Assembly: GCA_963681505.1 (NCBI GenBank)
Contig: OY811977.1
Span: 6,278,970 to 6,342,969 of the forward strand
Source: Eunapius fragilis
Taxonomy: Eukaryota > Porifera > Demospongiae > Spongillida > Spongillidae
Length of the DNA stretch: 64,000 bases
Reading direction: 5' to 3'
Shown here: positions 370 to 46,624 of the stretch, piece by piece
Position numbering within the stretch: the stretch's first letter is position 1
Layout of the letters: each line of letters starts with the position of its first letter
Translations under genes and position numbers: made by a program
Notes under the pieces: generated by a model
What the model was told of the DNA's origin: nothing
What the model saw: only the letters and a program-made list of their open reading frames with translations
The model's database searches: none

Positions 370-3300
370 GTGACCTTGGACCTTTGTATGGGTTCCAATG
401 GAAGCATTTTGGGGCTGAATATACGGACATGAATGCAGACTACCGTGGCAAGGGCATAGACCAACTTTCAAGGGTCATTGATACTATAAAGAAAAATCCA
501 AATGACCGCAGAATGATCATTACAGTCTGGAACCCAGCTGGTACGTACAGTGCATGCACATAGATAGCACCATTGAGGGCTGTTTGATAGAGAATTTGCT
601 CAAAGGCGATCCAATGTATCAGTTACTAATATAAGTTATAAAAATTATTTCTATTTCATTAACAGGCCCAAATTATTGTTTTCTAAAACATGATTGCTTA
701 GCGGACTATATTACTGAATTGAAATTACCGAAAAACATGTGCTCCATCAAGATGATACTTGCCTGACGATGTCAGATAACGGAGTGGTACAGAACACATG
801 GACATTCACTTGCATACAACATGCATGGACCTACTTTTCTCAAGTACCTTCTAAATATAGATTACATAACAATAATACACTAACTAAACCCCTAAAACAA
901 AACAACCACACTAAGAGTCGGTAGTGGTGTGAGTTGAAAATAAGTTTTCCTAAGATGGAGGCTGCATTTCCCCTTTGTACTGCCACTGAAAGGCGCTGTA
1001 TCAGGTACCTTTTGGTGTCACCAGTTGTGGCTGAGAGCCTGCGACCTAGCTCTCTGAGAAAGATCATGGAAAAAGGACCAAGCACTCCTGATGTTTCAAT
1101 ATGTCTGGATGTTTTCCAAGAGTATTTGGCCTTTTTCAGGTCCTCTGCCTGACTAGTGACAGCCATAATGGACTGTTGCCAGGTGAGAAGGCACCACTTG
1201 TTGATTTAAAAAGTGTGGGCTACATAGAGCTACTCCAAGGAGATGACCAACTACCACTCTAATCGTCTCATTGTCCATTCCTAGGCCCAGTGAAGAGTTA
1301 GGGATGGCATGAAGCCAGGCACCAGACACCTTCCAGGACAGCATAGACGAGCCCTAGTGATAACATCAGAGGATTGGTCTAACAAAGCTGCAGAGATTGC
1401 CTTTGACCCTTGGAGTGTCCTATGCCTTCTGCATGGCAATAGGATGTTGTGTCATAAACAATTCAAATAAGAATAAATCACAGTAGGTAGCCCCTGCTAC
1501 TTGTCATCTAAGATCGAAGACCCAGCTCAAAGATTCTCTTTGACCTTTTTTCATTACCGGCTAACCGTGGTCTGCTCCTCTCTGTGTCTTCTTCCCATGC
1601 CCCGGCTTGGCTTTTGGTCATGCCAACTCCCCAGACCTGAATTTCAATTTCAGGTGGCGCTAGTAATATGACTTGGAATTGAAACTACACAAAACTCCTG
1701 CTGTTCATCCTGTCTTTCGACACCCCCCCCCTCCCCCCCCCCCCCCCCCCCTTCCCCCCCCCCCCCCCCCTTCCACCCCCCCCCCCCCCCGGGGGGGGGC
1801 ACCACGCTCTTACATGTAAAAGTGGAGGTGACTTAATTGTCAGCCGCAATTTGTTGCGGGACACCGTGGAATCGTGTAAGCTGGCAGGTCAAATAGAAGC
1901 AAGCAGTGGCCTAAATGCAGAGTACTCGCCCCGTAGACGTCTTGGTAAGCCGACAGCACTGGATTTCACCATTACATCACCGCTAAATCTTTCTATAGAA
2001 ATTTATTAAATTTTATTAAATTTTATTAAAAGGGGGGCGAGCCCACCATATAAGGATATTTTGCCAACAATTACAATTTCGGATCTAATTACAGCTACGA
2101 GCTACCACTCTTTTAATAATTCGCCGAAATCATCTATACTTCGAACGATCGAAGTGAGTGTGGTCGGTTGCTAACCTCCGCAAACATGCCACCAATGACA
2201 ATCGTTTGTCATGGGCTGGGTTTGTAACCTTGGAGACGTATGGTTGCTGGGGAGAACTGAGAAACCAACAGATATTTCCCAACAAATTAAACTCGTTACA
2301 AGGATCGCCACATAGGTTCATTAGGTTGTCCCAAGCCTTCAGCAGTTGCTGGGCTGTATGGAAGGTTAAGCGTTCTATGGGAAAATCGGTCTTGTTGATT
2401 TATATATAGCATAAAAATCCAATCAACATATCTCCCGAAATATTAACGCTATCAGGTTCCTATGATTGCCACAACATACTACACCATTACTATATGTGAA
2501 AATCCATTTCGAATTCGGTTATGTACTCATGTGGAGTACCAACGTTATAAGGTCCGATACTCCATAGGGTTCGAAACAGCCATATCTTCAGGTATATAGG
2601 AGGGTTTAAATCGGTACAAATTCGGTACGTACGTAAAACGGTCCTGTCGCTATTGATTTGTTCTGTTCGTTAATTACTACTTTATCCGTTACGGAGCCGC
2701 GCAAAGTGCGTGCACGGTTTCTCGCTCGATTCGCGCCAATGATTTAGGCGCTCGCCTCCCATACATTGACTATCTAATTCACTGGCGCAAATCGAACGGG
2801 AAACCGTGCACGCACTTTGCACTATGTAAAGGATAAAGTAAAATTTAACGAATTAACAGGACAAATCAATAGCTACAGAACCCTTCTACGTACATACCGA
2901 ATTTGAACCGTTTCTGGCGATCTAACAGGTGGCCGTTTTGAACCCTATGGGCCGGGGTATCGGACCTTGAAACGTGGTACTCCGCATGAGTAAGACACCA
3001 AAATGGATTTTCAGGTATGGTAATGGTGTGGAATGTTGTTTTAACAATAGGAACCCGATAGCGTTAATACTTTGGTAGATAAATATTGATTTCCTTTTAA
3101 TCGGAAGTCTCGCTAGAGACTTCCATATAGGTTTTGACCCCGACTATGAATTTAATTAAAATCCCGCGACCCTACCGTAGCTTCGTTCCCGACGATCGGA
3201 TCGTCTAACTTGTTGCGGCAATCGATCTAGAAGTCAAAACTGAGTAGTTTCGTTTTTGTTTCACGTCGTAGAACCGCGTGGTTGTCGAGAACGAAAAATA

Positions 3301-6300
3301 CTGCTGTCCTCGTTCCCCTTCCAAAAATAATGGGCGGGTCGGGTCGTCTGCTTCTTCTGCTTCTTGAGAACTCATAACTCTGGACAGGAACACTTTTAAG
3401 CCATGAAAATTGCACCAATAGCTTTAGAATTTGCTGGAGGACTCGCTTTTAGGCTTTGATACACAAAAGCCTAAAAGCCTACATACGGTCTTATCAAGTC
3501 TAATTAACCGATTACCGGCCAATTTAATTATCCGTAGATAAGTACGGTCACTGCCGTAGAAGATTTTCGTAGCTGCCTCGAAATTGCGTTAGAAATAGGT
3601 ATCGTTTTAAATATGCGAACAATAGCAGAATGAAGCAAAATATGTATAGGCAAGTTTCTTTCTACCGTTAGTAAAGTCTCTATTGCATATTATAAAACCT
3701 ACGCTTTGTTGCGATCGTTTCTTTCTCCGTCGAGGCGCTCGTGTTCAATATACATAAGGCAGTGAAATCGGTTCTTATTCGGCAATGACACGAATGTTCG
3801 CATTTTCAGTCGAAATACCAAGTAAGAGGACTATTATGGGTTCTTGTGAAGATCTCCCCCCCCCCCCCCCCCCCCCCTCGCACCTATACTTTTACGGTAC
3901 AGATATTCAATCAACATCTTATTGGCACCTCAATGACATAATACATTCCGCATCTCAAACTATAACAATTAAATCAGATATTCTTCATTCCGCGACGCGA
4001 GCAAATGCTATTCTATTGTGAGCTTTATTTCTAACATGCACAAACAGTAGTGAACACTTACAGTAATGAGCGTTTCATTTTTCGCCGGTACTGGTCCACA
4101 CCCCTCTTGTAAATTCTCGTTCCAGCTGGGCCTAGTTTAGGTTCAGTGTAAAGGGGATAAGTACATTGGCTTCACTCCCCTATCCTAGCATGGCACACCC
4201 ATTCTAACCCCCCCCCCCCCCCCCCCATTTTCTAACCCTTAGTGAAGCCAATGTATTTATCCCCTTTACACTGAACCTAAACTAGGCCCAGCTAGAACGA
4301 GAATTTACAAGAGGGGTGTGGACCAGTACCGGCGAAAAATGAAACGCTCATTACTGTAAGTGCTCATTACTGTTTGTGTTAGAGAATATATTTGAAACCT
4401 GATGGACCGTCTGTATCTGTATTTGAGAGATAGATGCGGAATTAATGCATAGTCATTGAGGTGCCAATAAGATGTTAATTGAATATCTGTGCCGTAAAAG
4501 TATAGGTGCGAGGGGGGGGGGGGGGGGGGGGGGGGGAGATCTTCACAAGAACCCTATTATGTATTTTCTTTAAAATGTTGTCTTACGCAAAAGTTCGAAA
4601 TATGATGGGCAGCAGCTAACCCATGTTGAAGTGAGTTCTAATTATTGCGCGCATGCTATGCTCTGTTTGAATACCCCTCTTTCTATAGGAACTGTGCAAG
4701 CCTAGCTGATTTTTAACCCATTTACCTTTGAAGGCCACTAATGGCACAATGTAAAGCTTTACTGCGTTTGAAGATATGTTTGTTCACACAAGCTTCCCAC
4801 ACATGTGGTGGAGAGGTGCAATGGTGATATGGGGGTGTAGTGGTGATGTGGAAGTGTAGTAGTGATGTAGTTGTGCAGTGGTGATGTGGGGTGTAGGTTG
4901 GATGTGTTCAGTACTGATGTGGGGTGAAGTGCGGATATGGGGTGATGTGGGCTGAAGGGGTGATGTGGGGGGAAGTGGTGATGTGGGCTGAAGTGGGGAT
5001 GTGGGTTGAAGTGGTGATGTGGGATTCAGTGGTGATGTGTGGGGCACTGGGGATGTACGGGTTCAGTGGTGTGGGAGTTCAGTGGAAATGTGGGTGATGT
5101 GGGTACCCGGAAGCAGTGATGATGTGGGGTGCTTTGGTGATGTGGGGTGCAGTGGTGATGTGGGGGTACAGTGGTGACGTGGGGCGATGTGTGGGTGCAG
5201 TGATGTGTGAAGCAATGGTGATGTGGGTGCAGAGGTGATGTGGGTGTAGTGGTGATGTGGGTGCAGTGGTGATGTGGGTGCAGTGGTGATGTGGTGATGT
5301 GGGTGCAGTGGTGATGTGGGTGAGTGCAGTGGTGATGTGGGATGATGGGTGGGTTCAGTGGTGATGTGAGAGTGTAGTGGTAATGTGGGGTTCAGTGGTG
5401 ATGTGGGAGTGTAGTGGTAATGTGGGGTGCAGTGGTGATGTGGCTGAGTGCAGTGGTGATGTGGGGTGCAGTGGTGATGTGGGGTGCAGTGGTGATGTGG
5501 GGTGCAGTGGTGATGTGGAGTGCAGTGGTGATGTGGGGTGCAGTGGTGATGTGGGAGTGGTGGTGATGTGTGGTGATGTGGGTGCAGTGGTGATGTGGGT
5601 GCAGTGGTGATGTGGGGTGATGTGTTGGTGCAGTGGTGATGTGGGGTGATGTGTCGGTGCAGTGATGATGTGGGGTGATGTGGGGTTCAGTGGTGATGTA
5701 GGATTGTAGTCTGCTTCATTCTCGTCCTCTTCCACTTCTACCCCTCTGTCCTCATCACTTCCAGCTGCCCCATCCATGTTATCATCACTACTGGCATTGT
5801 TGAAGTCGATATTTACAACACAGAAGTCTTCATCCCTGTTCATGGAGTCAAAGACCTCTCCCAGTTTCGTCATATCTAATGCCATTCATTGATTGTGTTT
5901 TGTGGGTGATGGTATCTACAGCAATTACCTCACGCTTGGTACGGGCATATACACTGCAAGAAAAGTATGGTTATCCTAAGTTATCTGGGCTGGAGAAACT
6001 TGGTATAAACTCACAAAAGTTACCCTAAATCCAGTATAACTCTGCACAACTACCACAAAATTACATTCATAGATCAGATAACTGTAGTTGTGCAGAGTTA
6101 TACTAGATTTAGGGTAACTTTTGGGAGTTTATCCCAAATTTCTCCGGCCCAGATAACTTAGGATAACCATACTTTTCTTGCAGTGATACTACGACCCACC
6201 TCTTGACTTTTTAATAATTATAATACAAACTAGCGTGTCCCGTGTTACGCGGACGTACGTTGGAAATTAGATACGGCGCTTTCATTGTCTTTTCTAACAG

Positions 6301-9300
6301 CTGGACAACTGAGTTGTGATTTTATGTGTCGATGGTGAGCGTACGACATACGCGATTCAGACGTTAGGTTATTGCATTTGGACGAGAGTATGTGGTTGAG
6401 TCGTCTACGGCCGTTAAACATCCTTAATTACGAGATGCATTTATGCGCCTACGGCCGGTAATCGATTAAGCAAAAGTACCTATTTGGGTGTTAAAAAAAT
6501 TAAGGAAACAAGTAAATAAAAACATTCTCACCGAGAAAGTTGGTGGGATATAGGTTTTGCAGGCAAATAGTATACTAGTATACTGGTGTAAAAAGCAAGG
6601 AAACAAGTTTTATCAGAAGGGAAAATGTAATAGTCCTATATTTAGCACAGAAACAGCATATGCCTTAGTCGAAGTGTGCTAAATATAGGACTATTACATT
6701 TTCCCTTCTGATAAAACTTGTTTCCTTGCTTTTTACACCAGTATACTAGTATACTATTTACCTGCAAAACCTATATCCCACGAACTTTCTCAGTGAGAAT
6801 GTTTTAATTTACTTGTATATATAAATCTACAATACAAGACCCATGCATTTTCGTTCCATATCAGATTTTCCAGGACAAGCAGAAGAAAAGCAGCGCTTCG
6901 CTCGCATTGAAATGTATGGCTAATTATAAATTCAGTGCCTAATAACTTTAAAACTATTAGGATCACCCCCCACCCCCCCTTTGCGTGATGGAATTCAAAA
7001 TACACATTTAAAATGTTTCATACAGAAATGGAGTCTCCTTATGAAAGGAAAATAGAAAATAGATTGTCCAAGCATTCGGAAGATTCAGTGATTTTAAATG
7101 AACCATCGTTGCGTGAACTGTCCCAAATACCTGTATCGTTGCAGCCAAAAGGGCCCTAATGCTGCATGGTTATGAACTATTTGATATTCAAAGAGACAAC
7201 TACGTCCTCTCCAGCTTCTTTCTAATGCACTGGAAATTAGCCTGTCCATCATGGAGTTTACAGGGTCCTGAATTTTTTATTACACGCGTGGCTCCTTCCT
7301 GGAAATTTTTATAATATGCGCTAGGTCCCTTTTCGCTGCCTCGACCCCATATGGGATCGTGGCGGCGAAAAGCATGTCATCATGTGTAGTTACAGTACCT
7401 GAATTTTTCATATTAAAATTGTACTTGTCAATTTGGTGTTCCTTGTTTATAATATCACTTTGGGTCCCTTAAAGATACAACGATCCCAATTTGTAGTGTA
7501 CAAAATTAATTATAACGTATTCGACTATACTACCGTTGTTTTCCAGACACTCACAAGATGGTAATTCCCTCGTGCATCACACAACTTCAGTTCTACGTTG
7601 TCAACGGAGAAGTCTCGTGCATGCTGCATCAAAGATCAGCCGATATGGTTGGTATCATTGTACGTGTTTACTTTTATATGGTTGTGGAAAACATGCAAAG
7701 TTACAAACAAAATATTTCTCGGACTACCATAGAGGTCAGGGGGCCGGGTCTAGTGACTTTGCCTCGTTTACCTACCCATACCCACACCCACACACTCACA
7801 TCTTGACAAATATGCGCACAATGAATTTAAGTAATCAATATAGAGCTTTATCATCCTTGAGAGTAGTTTTTCAAGTTTTTTATTCTCCGAAAACTGCAAG
7901 TAGCTGCTAAACTTCAAAAAGACACTAATCAAATGCCCCCAAAATGGACTATTCATAGGGCTATTCGTGTATAAGGCATTGGTATTATAATTAGCATACA
8001 TTTCAAAGCGAGCGTTAGTTACTTTTCTTTTGCTTGTCCAAGGGTTATTTTGCTAGAAGCGTACATAATTATTGTTGCTATAGTATCTAAAAGCATATTT
8101 TAAAACATAAAAATAAATTTACATAAAAATAAATTTACGGTGTGCAAGCATTAATGTAACGCTAATTCATAAGATAAACGTTTGAGACCCAACTTTCAAA
8201 TTGCCCAAACTTTACGAATTGATGACTTTTACAAGTGCAATATTATATTGTTCTCACAGGCCCTTGGCGTTCCTACGGATGTAGCATCGTATGCTCTGCT
8301 CACTTATATGATAGCGCACGTCTGCTCTCTAAAGGTATGCCCATGCAATAGACCTGTTCGAATCATTTTATTCAATGTAATGTTCTCTTCCCTGGCTACT
8401 CAACGTTGATACTGATGTTTTGAATAGCCAGGAGATCTGGTACACTCAATAGGAGATGCCCATGTATATTCAAACCACATTCAAGGTGTCGAATCACAGG
8501 TAATGAGTGCGTCCATTTAATTAACCCATGCACGTACGAAATTGTATCAAGTAACCCTAAAGCTATACAAATACAAATAACTGTGTTTACTGTATATAAT
8601 TGCATTTATTAGTGTGTCCTGCATATTGCGCATTATTAAAATATCTATAGCTATACATGCACAATTTATGCATAGGCCAAGTTAAAACTGAGCTAGCTAT
8701 ACATTGTAGAGAAAGTAAGCTCAACTGTACACATCAGCTTTCAGGAAGTAAAATTCATTTTAAAAACGGGAACACAGCCGACGAACGGATGGCCCTAGCG
8801 TATCGTGGTTGAAATCAAACAAAAAGTAACGTATGGCTTTGCGCTAGTCGGACTCCATGCAGTTTTAGAGAATATATAAGTAGTTCACGCTCGTAGCCAG
8901 TCGTATTGTTCTCCCTATTCCTAATATCGAGTGCAAAAGCAGTTTCGGCAGACCAAAATTTTCGTGACAGGTCTGTAGGTCCCAAAACAATAGCGACTTA
9001 GAGACGAGGTCCGTAGACCTCTCTTATGTACCGATGTCATAGCGGATTATGCCCCCCCCCCCCCCCCCCCCCCCCAAAAAAATAAAAATAAAAATTGTCC
9101 CCCCGGATAGATAAAATTCGCTAACCCTAACCCTAACCCTAACCCTAACCCTAAACCCTGACACGTTCTGCTAGCTGCTTGTGTCCCCCCAGGATCTGTC
9201 CCACCCCCACCCCCTCTCCCCTCCAACATTAGTGTTTATTTACTTAGCGAGCTTGCATGCAGGCAGCTTCGTTTGGTCTGACCTACTATAAATTTGGTCC

Positions 9301-10058
9301 TAAATAAGGTTACGGTATATACGCTCTCATGTTGGTCTGTTCGCACGGCTTTGTCCTATAAATATATTATCAGGAGGCCCCCCCCCGCCCCCTTTCAGCG
9401 ACATCTATTGTTTTATATATGTTGAAAGCGATAGCTTCTAGGGCTCCGCCCTAAACCCGGACAGGGAAGCTTACTGCGTTCCCCATACCTACCTGTAGTG
9501 AATGAGACACTCCCTCTATATCATATAACTTTTGTAATCCTGTATCCGCCTTGTGTTTGAACAACTCCTGCCTAAACCCACACATATTTGTAACACAACA
9601 CGTATAGATCTTGGAGGGTGGAGGGGGAAGGGCTGCGGAAGGGCGCGGGGCATCACACGCTCATTGTGCCTCCATTTCACAAATAGAACCTCTTTAATTT
9701 AATCTCGGCACTTTCCTTCATGAAGGCCAGCGAAAAGTGTTCCCAGATCTTGAGAGTAAGGGGGACAATTTCTGCTAGTGGATTATGTCCGGGGAGACAA
9801 ATTCCACGCGGGTGACAGAATCTGCTCGGACACCGTATTAATTCTAAATGAGCACGGTAAATGTATTGTCGTATGGTAAATGTATCGTCGCAACCCAATT
9901 GCTATATGCTACTTCTATTCCAGATAACTAGAGAACCACGTCCATTTCCCACTCTGGAAATTAAAAGGACGGTGGAGTCCATTGAAGCTTTCACGCGGGA
10001 AGATTTCAATCTCATAAACTACAATCCCCACCCTAAAATTCAATATCCAGTGAATTAA
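370..10058 (+). CDS. TYMS: Thymidylate synthase-family enzyme, 5' end outside window
   Basis: Enzyme family that methylates a pyrimidine nucleotide monophosphate (normally dUMP to dTMP) with methylene-tetrahydrofolate. Five exons fit in frame: 370-540, 7547-7647, 8260-8334, 8428-8499 and 9924-10058 (stop TAA). The N-terminal exon(s) lie upstream. Visible family motifs: [11 protein letters not shown], the phosphate-binding NDRR, catalytic Cys in [36 protein letters not shown], and a C-terminal REPRPFP...YNPHP block. Two key positions are unusual. The human Asn226 of PFN, which selects dUMP, is Asp (PTD), and the His after the catalytic Cys is Ile. Both lie inside exons, so splicing errors do not explain them. 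The third exon may end at 7647 (donor gttggt) or run to 7665 with a better donor (gtacgt), adding six residues. AATAAA at 10057-10062 overlaps the stop. The family assignment is certain; the substrate is open. Confidence 0.93.
930..1440 (-). mobile_element. LINE fragment, reverse-transcriptase C-terminal region
   Basis: Reverse-strand translation gives the block [19 protein letters not shown] followed, after frame breaks, by [15 protein letters not shown] and [14 protein letters not shown]-like text. These are conserved blocks of the C-terminal region of a LINE family common in sponges and cnidarians. Several frameshifts show it is dead. It sits inside the first long intron of the thymidylate synthase homologue. 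Confidence 0.7.
1722..1797 (+). repeat. Poly-C tract with short interruptions and a G run
   Basis: About 75 bases almost entirely C, broken by tt/tcca, ending in ten G. Similar long C or G runs occur at about 3857, 4208, 4513, 9051, 26731, 35262 and 42366. Exact lengths are unreliable in any assembly. Confidence 0.9.
1798..2300 (+). mobile_element. LINE fragment, forward orientation
   Basis: The forward strand encodes [19 protein letters not shown], then [15 protein letters not shown], then after about 190 bases [16 protein letters not shown]. These match the same C-terminal LINE blocks seen on the reverse strand at 14750-15465. Reading frames are broken. It faces the fragment at 930-1440, so two dead copies converge around the poly-C tract. 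Confidence 0.65.
2417..3092. mobile_element. Foldback (MITE-like) element, about 0.67 kb
   Basis: The two halves are near reverse complements over roughly 310 bases each. Outer arms include attaacgctatcaggttcc (left) and ggaacccgatagcgttaat (right). The inner arms share gtgcgtgcacggtttc and gaaaccgtgcacgcac, and the centre is at about 2756. No coding capacity is seen. This is the form expected of a non-autonomous foldback DNA element. Confidence 0.8.
3093..3832. other. Intronic, nothing recognised
   Basis: No convincing coding block or tandem repeat. The text near 3500 (taaccgattaccggcc) recurs inverted near 6455, so this may be part of an old interrupted element. Confidence 0.3.
3833..4563. 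mobile_element. Near-perfect 0.73 kb palindrome with internal poly-C
   Basis: The left arm runs from ggttcttgtgaagatctc plus a C tract and ctcgcacctatacttt. The right arm mirrors it with a G tract and gagatcttcacaagaacc at 4536-4555. The mirror continues through gggcctagtttaggttcag to a centre near 4200-4215, itself a C run. Such a long, well-matched inverted repeat points to a recent foldback insertion or inverted duplication. Confidence 0.8.
4797..5705. repeat. Minisatellite, gtggtgatgtgggtgca units of about 17-21 bp
   Basis: Irregular tandem units of the form cagtggtgatgtggggtg cover about 0.9 kb. Open frames across it (repeated TSPLHP on the reverse strand) arise because the unit lacks stops. 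Confidence 0.88.
5700..5885 (-). CDS. Short acidic ORF running into the minisatellite
   Basis: The reverse strand starts at ATG 5885 and encodes about 62 non-repetitive residues rich in Asp, Glu and Asn (for example [14 protein letters not shown]) before reading into the minisatellite. The composition looks like the acidic N-terminus of a transposase or a small host exon. I do not recognise the family, and no splice site or partner exon is obvious. It may be the relic of an element interrupted by repeat growth. Confidence 0.2.
5952..6185. mobile_element. MITE, 234 bp, perfect-ended
   Basis: The ends are cactgcaagaaaagtatgg and its complement ccatacttttcttgcagtg. Arms of about 100 bases flank a loop of about 30. 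No coding capacity. The termini are fully complementary, suggesting a recent insertion. Confidence 0.88.
6509..6815. mobile_element. MITE family A, copy 1
   Basis: The ends are caagtaaataaaaacattctc and the complementary gagaatgttttaatttacttg. The arms extend inward to cctatatttagcaca. A diverged relative with the same termini and core lies at 15611-15892. Confidence 0.85.
6908..6960 (-). repeat. Dispersed repeat B, inverted partial copy
   Basis: aaattcagtgcctaataact recurs inverted at about 24540 and 17300. The three copies differ by scattered substitutions, as expected for an interspersed repeat. Confidence 0.6.
7185..7380. mobile_element. Dispersed element C, copy 1
   Basis: Contains gcactggaaattagcctgtc, ggagtttacagggtcctgaa, aatatgcgctaggtcc and cgctgcctcgaccccatat, all found in the same order at 47978-48215. 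It lies just before the third-exon acceptor of the thymidylate synthase homologue. Confidence 0.75.
9051..9160 (+). repeat. Poly-C, A-rich run, then (CCCTAA)n interstitial telomeric repeat
   Basis: About 25 C, an A-rich stretch, then ctaaccctaaccctaaccct continuing for about six copies of the vertebrate-type animal telomere unit from 9121. It is in the last intron of the thymidylate synthase homologue. A short internal array like this usually marks repaired breaks or telomerase insertion. Confidence 0.9.
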
Positions 10059-45400: not shown

Positions 45401-46624
45401 CTGGAGACTACTGTCAGAATTGTGAGTCCATGGTCTGTAATGTTCATGTCATATTTAGGGGAAAGGCTTACAATTCATATGCATGGACAAGAGACTCAAG
45501 TTGAAGTGCTAAGAACATTATCCACACAACAGGATTAAGTTTCATACTAGCATACTAGCCCCGCCTCCTCCGCTGAATTCTGTTATGCATGCAGTAATCA
45601 TTCTGGGCTCTGGGTGTAGCTAATCTGAGTCACTTTCCACTGCTGTACTACTTACATTGCTGTGCATGTATTCATGGGTTACCTGAATCACAAAAATAGG
45701 TCTAATGGACCCCAGCTTAGTTCTGGTTTTAAAAACCTGCTAATTATATGTGTGCATCATGAACATCTCGATTTTTTTCCCCTTACAGTCATCATCAAAT
45801 CTGTTCACTTGGGAGAATTTCAGATTGGCACAGTCCTTAAGTGGGAACTTAATGGATCCCGGATGGAATCAAAACAACTGAAGATATCCAATGCATCGGG
45901 AGACTTGTTTCAAATAAGTGTGCAGTATGACATAAAGTCAGTGTCATTCAGCAGCCCATCTCGGGATAGGTGGAGCTACGAGGAGCAGACAGCAGACTTT
46001 CCCTTTGCCTCCCCCGATGCCTCCATTATTGTTGTGATGGAAGAGGGTGGCTTTGCGATAAGTTGCAATGGGACATCCCCTGCTTACCTCTACGCATACA
46101 GAGGGGTGGCCTCTGGAAGCATCATGGTATCGATCACTTCTGGAACTGTTGCTATTGGCAAAGTAAGTTCAATTAATTCACCTGATATTAATATTGATGT
46201 CTGATTTTCATTACTGCAGAAGTTACTCATACCGTCATATCAACCTGGAGCTGTCATTTACATCCAAGGAGTTGCTCCTGCCAGCGGAGACTTTGCCATC
46301 CAACTGTACCCAGCAGATCCACAGATGTTGATGGCACCCTCTTCAACAGACATTGCCCTCTCTGTGAAGCCTCTCTTTAGCGAGTCCAGTGTGGTCCTCA
46401 ACTCACTGATAGCTGGTCGCTGGGGGCAGGCCCAGAAGGAGAAGGGATTTCCCCTGGAGGCCTCAAAACCATTCATACTTGCCATTACATGGCAGCTGTA
46501 TGGCTTTGAGGTCGCCATAAATGGTGTGCATTTTGCCACGTACAGTCACCGTCTCCCTTTCGCCATGAGTACCACGGTAATGACATCATCACTGGACTAC
46601 GTATACAGAATAAGGTTATACTGA
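42440..46624 (+). CDS. Secreted Ig-EGF-galectin protein
   Basis: Nine exons join in frame to about 608 residues: 42440-42533, 42822-42993, 43063-43193, 43437-43637, 43848-44014, 45078-45243, 45305-45421, 45789-46162, 46220-46624. Order: signal peptide (VFLLSALFVCAPTQVVG); an Ig-like domain over exons 2-3 (VKIDCAM, CYWNWQY, LYMCKNP); a second over exon 4 (LSDSGVYAVRA); a third over exons 5-6 (LSIQCYI, TIIRWMKN, LSGQYTCESSNAQG); an EGF module in exon 7 (CEINPCLNGGTC...CLCSEQNTGDYC); then two galectin folds. The first galectin is degenerate; the second is clear (PGAVIYIQGVAPASGDFAIQ, VVLNSLIAGRWG, FEVAINGVHFATYSHRLPF). No membrane anchor follows, so it is probably secreted for recognition or adhesion. 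An alternative start (ATG 42342, MFLDK...) spliced over a poly-C intron also fits. Intron 5 holds a transposon. Confidence 0.85.
44097..44880. mobile_element. Non-autonomous element in intron 5, TIR with tgactcccc
   Basis: The left end gtgtcatagtcgccaatgac and repeats of gcatatatgactccc are mirrored at the right by ggggagtcatatatgcc and gtcatttatgcctctgacac. Sub-terminal ctcccc/ggggag motifs repeat several times at each end, as in many DNA transposons. No ORF is seen. Confidence 0.65.

Follow-up and report, generated by a model that had tools for sequence, protein, structure and literature searches.

The DNA analyzed here (the window, a stretch of 64,000 nucleotides from Eunapius fragilis that starts at position 6278970 of contig C7) contains five exons of a thymidylate synthase (TS) gene; two further exons and a single-exon kinase-like gene lie just upstream of it. 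Exons are numbered as in this report, and residues carry EcTS numbering unless another enzyme is named.

L007 1014-1700 (C7:6270513-6271199), same strand as the TS gene: single-exon gene of the dNMP-kinase/phosphomevalonate-kinase group
L007 3329-3446 and 4995-5188: two further TS exons, upstream of the window
Window 370-540, + strand: TS exon 3, with the two Arg residues that bind phosphate and the Tyr corresponding to EcTS Tyr94
Window 7547-7647, + strand: TS exon 4, with the catalytic Cys and an Ile next to it
Window 7570-7572, + strand: Ser codon TCG of the PSCI motif (codon read)
Window 7573-7575, + strand: catalytic Cys codon TGC, EcTS C146 (codon read)
Window 7576-7578, + strand: Ile codon ATC replacing the conserved His, EcTS H147 (codon read, homologue alignment)
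Window 8260-8334, + strand: TS exon 5
Window 8275-8277, + strand: Thr codon ACG replacing the conserved Phe, EcTS F176, a folate contact
Window 8278-8280, + strand: Asp codon GAT replacing the dUMP-selecting Asn (EcTS N177, L. casei N229, human N226)
Window 8428-8499, + strand: TS exon 6, with the ribose-binding His and Tyr
Window 9924-10058, + strand: last TS exon, ITREPRPF...HPKIQYPVN, followed by a stop

An earlier, sequence-only reading of this DNA had described a TS homologue of five in-frame exons with the motifs PSCI and LGVPTD. The codons at 7570-7578 and 8275-8280 bear out both motifs, and the five exons join to the two upstream exons in a frame that is open over 287 codons, with AG/GT at every internal junction. 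Two of the later exon lengths (101+75 and 72) presumably equal those of human TYMS exons. The spliced protein matches positions 1-264 of the 266 in the PF00303 model (Pfam, E 3.9e-105, 351 bits), and this match over the model length, together with the catalytic Cys, places it in that family. The Cys and the motifs NDRR, HQRSADM, and GDAHVYSNH are all present, as that reading had listed them; the changed motifs are IPSCI and LGVPTD. The search for a start codon and a first coding exon gave neither. At the other end, the tail HPKIQYPVN falls one residue short of the animal tails aligned with it, which are mostly MEMAV, and has no terminal Val. One TS intron contains two near-perfect hairpin repeats that resemble foldback elements or MITEs, at 5952-6185 (102-base arms, 95%) and 6508-6816 (142-base arms, 97%), and the last intron has a short, telomere-repeat-like CCCTAA run at 9125-9154, near a long poly-C tract. 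Animal-type domains encoded near the TS gene include an amino-acid transporter and a galectin; the window carries, at 45629-46621, two galactoside-binding lectin domains in neighboring frames (Pfam E 4.9e-5 and 3e-23).

The altered motifs are exceptional within the family. Of the 6360 proteins matched in a search of 5.8 billion, 120 were listed, and all 120 have PPCH and PFN (the earlier reading had called LGVPFN near-invariant); the highest identity to the Eunapius protein among the 120 is 63%, and none is near-identical. In an alignment of 116 of these homologues (P0001, P0079, P0084, and P0120, all four canonical, were left out), the Pro, His, Phe, and Asn of the altered sites are each found in 116 of 116, and neither Asp177 nor Ile147 occurs in any. 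The canonical dUMP-specific pair, Asn177 with His147, is thus Asp with Ile here. In the 118 columns with a conservation of 98% or more, the protein deviates at 21, compared with a median of 0 and at most 3 for the other 116 homologues; it also deviates at 56 of the 85 variable columns (less than 70% conserved). Its branch length in a phylogenetic tree is 4.15, compared with a median of 0.64, and the tree gives it no reliable placement.

Two other origins of this divergence were considered. A single sequencing error cannot produce the pattern, because neither His-to-Ile nor Phe-to-Thr is possible with fewer than two base changes; with 21 of 118 conserved columns differing, we reject sequencing error. 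Insertion of a viral TS is unsupported, given at least seven exons and 58 to 62% identity to the aligned animal and other eukaryotic TS proteins (P0001 apart).

Residues that contact substrate or cofactor, taken from the papers cited here and compiled by us, are altered more often than the remainder: 8 of 24 contact columns versus 13 of 94 other invariant columns (Fisher p 0.036), a modest enrichment. None of the 11 catalytic, phosphate, and ribose residues is altered. Relative to the animal TYMS proteins of Ephydatia, Halichondria, and Sycon, which the protein resembles over its whole length (58 to 62% identity in the aligned set without P0001), the catalytic Cys, the phosphate and ribose residues, and the equivalents of Glu58, Trp80, Tyr94, and Asp169 are common to both. 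The contacts that differ are Lys48 (Arg here), the animal Asn at EcTS 83 (Phe), Leu143 (Ile), His147 (Ile), Phe176 (Thr), Asn177 (Asp), and two tail positions; the altered tail has no terminal Val. The proteins of these three sponges, named by their sources, are canonical PFN/PPCH enzymes. The sequence-only reading had set such orthologues beforehand as evidence against itself; we instead read Asp177 and Ile147 as probably derived within the Eunapius lineage, given that changes are commoner among residues of the base and folate pocket and that the gene keeps an open frame.

The altered folate contacts and the lack of the C-terminal residue that helps TS to close mean that the protein may be weak or inactive. 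According to passages of PMC7962005, the canonical mouse and E. coli enzymes become less active when the active-site His next to the Cys is lost. One explanation is a TS whose activity is lost or fading in an animal that lives on thymidine salvage via TK1 and dTMP kinase, exons of which were located on contigs C11 and C15, respectively. Accelerated evolution, the lack of a terminal Val, a first exon that was not located, and a best identity of 63% among the 120 listed of 6360 matches are in keeping with such a loss; however, the residues for catalysis and for phosphate and ribose binding are all retained, the conserved columns are altered less than the variable ones, and the frame is open with intact junctions. 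In a neutral-drift simulation to 18% amino-acid change, which used simple rates and ignored frameshifts, the frame stayed free of stops in only 12 of 400 runs (mean, 3.3 stops), which disfavors a recent pseudogene. Taken together, we regard loss of activity as unlikely.

The replacement of Asn by Asp at the equivalent position has a bench precedent. The engineered L. casei TS N229D of Liu and Santi (1992) reportedly became a deoxycytidylate methylase through this same single change; in that bench mutant, the other pocket residues are wild type. The viral world offers a wider comparison: in the passages of PMC8670742 drawn on here, positions 177 and 147 are the best two for separating the TS homologues of viruses with cytosine-modified DNA from those of viruses with unmodified DNA, and replacing Asn with Asp at 177 can turn a preference for dUMP into one for dCMP, so that 5-methyl-dCMP is formed. 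We compared 131 viral loci, which were read in tblastn frames and are mutually related rather than 131 independent cases. The T4-type loci fetched (the best 80 of 170) all have Asp177/Thr147/Asp143/Ser92, and 50 of the 51 TS-type loci have Asn177/His147, the remaining one having Asn177 and ending before position 147. The Eunapius protein has the dCMP-type combination of Asp177 with a residue other than His at 147, as defined from the same passages (PMC8670742), although the Ile itself was seen in 0 of the 131 loci. A dCMP preference of the putative enzyme is therefore supported by these residues.

Which modification would be made is a separate matter. In the portions of PMC6400193 used here, hydroxymethylation has a signature of its own, an acidic residue (Asp or Glu) three positions before the Cys and a Ser (or Thr) two positions before the Tyr that corresponds to T4 Tyr96; the Eunapius protein has Ile and Pro at these sites. 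The CMP hydroxymethylase MilA of mildiomycin biosynthesis also has Asp at the 177 position, but selects ribose with Ala176 and Lys133 (PMC5175136, in part); here, the residues are Ser191 and Arg150, the deoxyribose pair. Since both the hydroxymethylase signature and MilA-type ribose selection are absent, methylation of the deoxy form appears to be the better guess. The interpretation put forward in the sequence-only reading, an enzyme that methylates or hydroxymethylates dCMP, is thus partly supported: the predicted dCMP preference agrees with the 177/147 signature, and hydroxymethylation is disfavored.

In phage T4, gp42 and gp1 make 5-hydroxymethyl-dCMP and then phosphorylate it toward hm-dCTP. 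The kinase-like gene makes a comparable arrangement worth weighing here, in which a T4-type dCMP hydroxymethylase would supply 5-hydroxymethyl-dCMP and the neighboring kinase would phosphorylate it toward hm-dCTP for DNA. The gene is unique, shares its strand with the TS gene, whose first located exon follows 1.6 kb farther on, and matches phrog_139 (E 2e-18). Like T4 gp42, the Eunapius protein has Asp177, no His147, and no full C-terminal closure; T4 dCH is described as being without the TS C-terminal tail (PMC6400193, in part), and here the last residue is lost. In contrast, the T4 dCH residues Asp145 and Ser94, which the same passages report to be needed for the addition of water (PMC6400193), are Ile and Pro here, so that the Asp143 and Ser92 equivalents are missing; T4 gp42 shares only 23% identity with this TS over 149 residues, and the model of the kinase resembles phosphomevalonate kinases somewhat more than it does T4 dNMP kinase. 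On balance, we consider a T4-type hydroxymethylase quite unlikely.

The kinase itself has few relatives, 12 in the search of 5.8 billion proteins; relatives at 74% and 58% (P0122 and P0123) are encoded on two ENA contigs. It had no match among phages and nothing better than E 0.16 in a sequence search of the PDB. No phosphomevalonate kinase was found in the genome, but the control genomes gave none either. A splice joining the kinase to the first TS exon would be in phase, but its donor is weak. In viral contigs, none of 14 loci with related kinases (4 to 16 kb each) had a TS beside the kinase. The two whose ORFs were read, L012 and L014, look phage-like by eye, so that an origin of the kinase from a giant virus is not supported.

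The assembly searched comprises 219 Mb in 24 contigs, no completeness figure is given for it, and some stretches read N. The sequence-only reading had proposed a search for a second, canonical TS, and none was found: all six matches of the TS profile fall in this one gene (C7 6272845-6289021), as do all seven matches of the canonical Halichondria TS used as a genome query. Searching with a single exon alone gave no candidate, and a profile search for ThyX gave no match in the genome. Exons of the rest of the pathway are present. An ordinary-looking dCMP-deaminase (DCTD-type) exon, named by eye from its motif, lies on C6 (VCHAELNAILNKN...FPCNECAKL), and a DHFR exon occurs in two copies on C4, at 201987 (L163) and 577160 (L162). 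Three collinear dUTPase exons on C4 were detected at a relaxed threshold only, with none at the default threshold. A second deaminase-like exon at C6:2644570 (L160) has HAE and PCxxC motifs, was also named by eye, and is a candidate for acting on a modified substrate. The two DHFR exon copies are 375 kb apart in opposite orientation, and their main matching pieces are 88 to 100% identical over about 2.5 kb.

These searches bear on two further explanations. It can be envisioned that the gene is a side paralogue and that the true, canonical TS is absent from the assembly or falls in a stretch that reads N, as the lack of a completeness figure would allow; however, both TS queries led to this gene only, in an assembly of few contigs that carries exons of the remaining pathway, and we find this explanation highly improbable. 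Alternatively, dTMP may still be made from dUMP, with other changes compensating for Asp177. The failure to find any other TS, in a genome where exons of DCTD, DHFR, and dUTPase persist, is consistent with such compensation, as are the conservative replacement of Leu143 by Ile and the retention of Trp80, Tyr94, and Asp169. Against it, Asn177 is present in all 116 aligned homologues and in the four left out, and Asn-to-Asp changes described in the literature shift the preference to dCMP (PMC8670742, in the passages used). Retention of dUMP activity is, in our judgment, very unlikely.

The explanation that we tentatively prefer, at somewhat less than an even chance, is that this gene is a native, intron-bearing animal TS in which alteration of the base and folate pocket has produced a dCMP-preferring C5-methyltransferase whose product, 5-methyl-dCMP, is deaminated to dTMP. 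The one-carbon unit of methylene-tetrahydrofolate would be passed to dCMP with a TS-type hydride transfer, yielding 5-methyl-dCMP and dihydrofolate, and dCMP deaminase would then convert 5-methyl-dCMP to dTMP, so that methylation precedes deamination. A sole intact TS would stay useful for thymidylate because the deaminase could turn 5-methyl-dCMP into dTMP; since no other TS was located, the purpose of its product may be to supply thymidylate and not a modified base in DNA. As stated in the parts of PMC12088426 consulted, DCTD accepts 5-methyl-dCMP, and phage XP-12 obtains dTTP by deaminating 5-methyl-dCTP. The proposed logic therefore resembles that of the XP-12 dCMP methylase, in which a cytosine nucleotide is methylated and then deaminated to a thymine nucleotide (PMC12088426); unlike the proposed animal route, XP-12 is a phage system that deaminates at the triphosphate level, and it was compared by description rather than by sequence. 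The window is depleted in CpG (observed/expected, 0.58), like genomes with CpG methylation; it is therefore likely that this animal already handles 5-methyl-dCMP released by DNA turnover.

Some of the 5-methyl-dCMP could, instead of being deaminated, serve as a substrate for the neighboring kinase. In its fullest form, the hypothesis is that this animal has replaced the dUMP-to-dTMP step, its sole TS being a dCMP methylase that works with a deaminase to give dTMP, and that the kinase may channel 5-methyl-dCMP to 5-methyl-dCTP as a replication-coupled source of methylated cytosine; in this extended form, we consider it somewhat doubtful. Full-text literature searches, judged by titles and the starts of abstracts, gave no report of an animal-encoded dCMP methylase or hydroxymethylase and, for sponge TS, no report of such an enzyme. 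One of the papers found, PMC3222630, names TS and dCMP-hydroxymethylase homologues for an insect virus.

All animals are generally taken to make thymidylate from dUMP, and this route is a main target of drugs. If our preferred explanation is correct, the thymidylate pathway of animals can be rerouted, and Eunapius would provide a natural test of an XP-12-like order of events, in which methylation comes first and deamination second. It would also test whether animals make modified cytosine at the nucleotide level.
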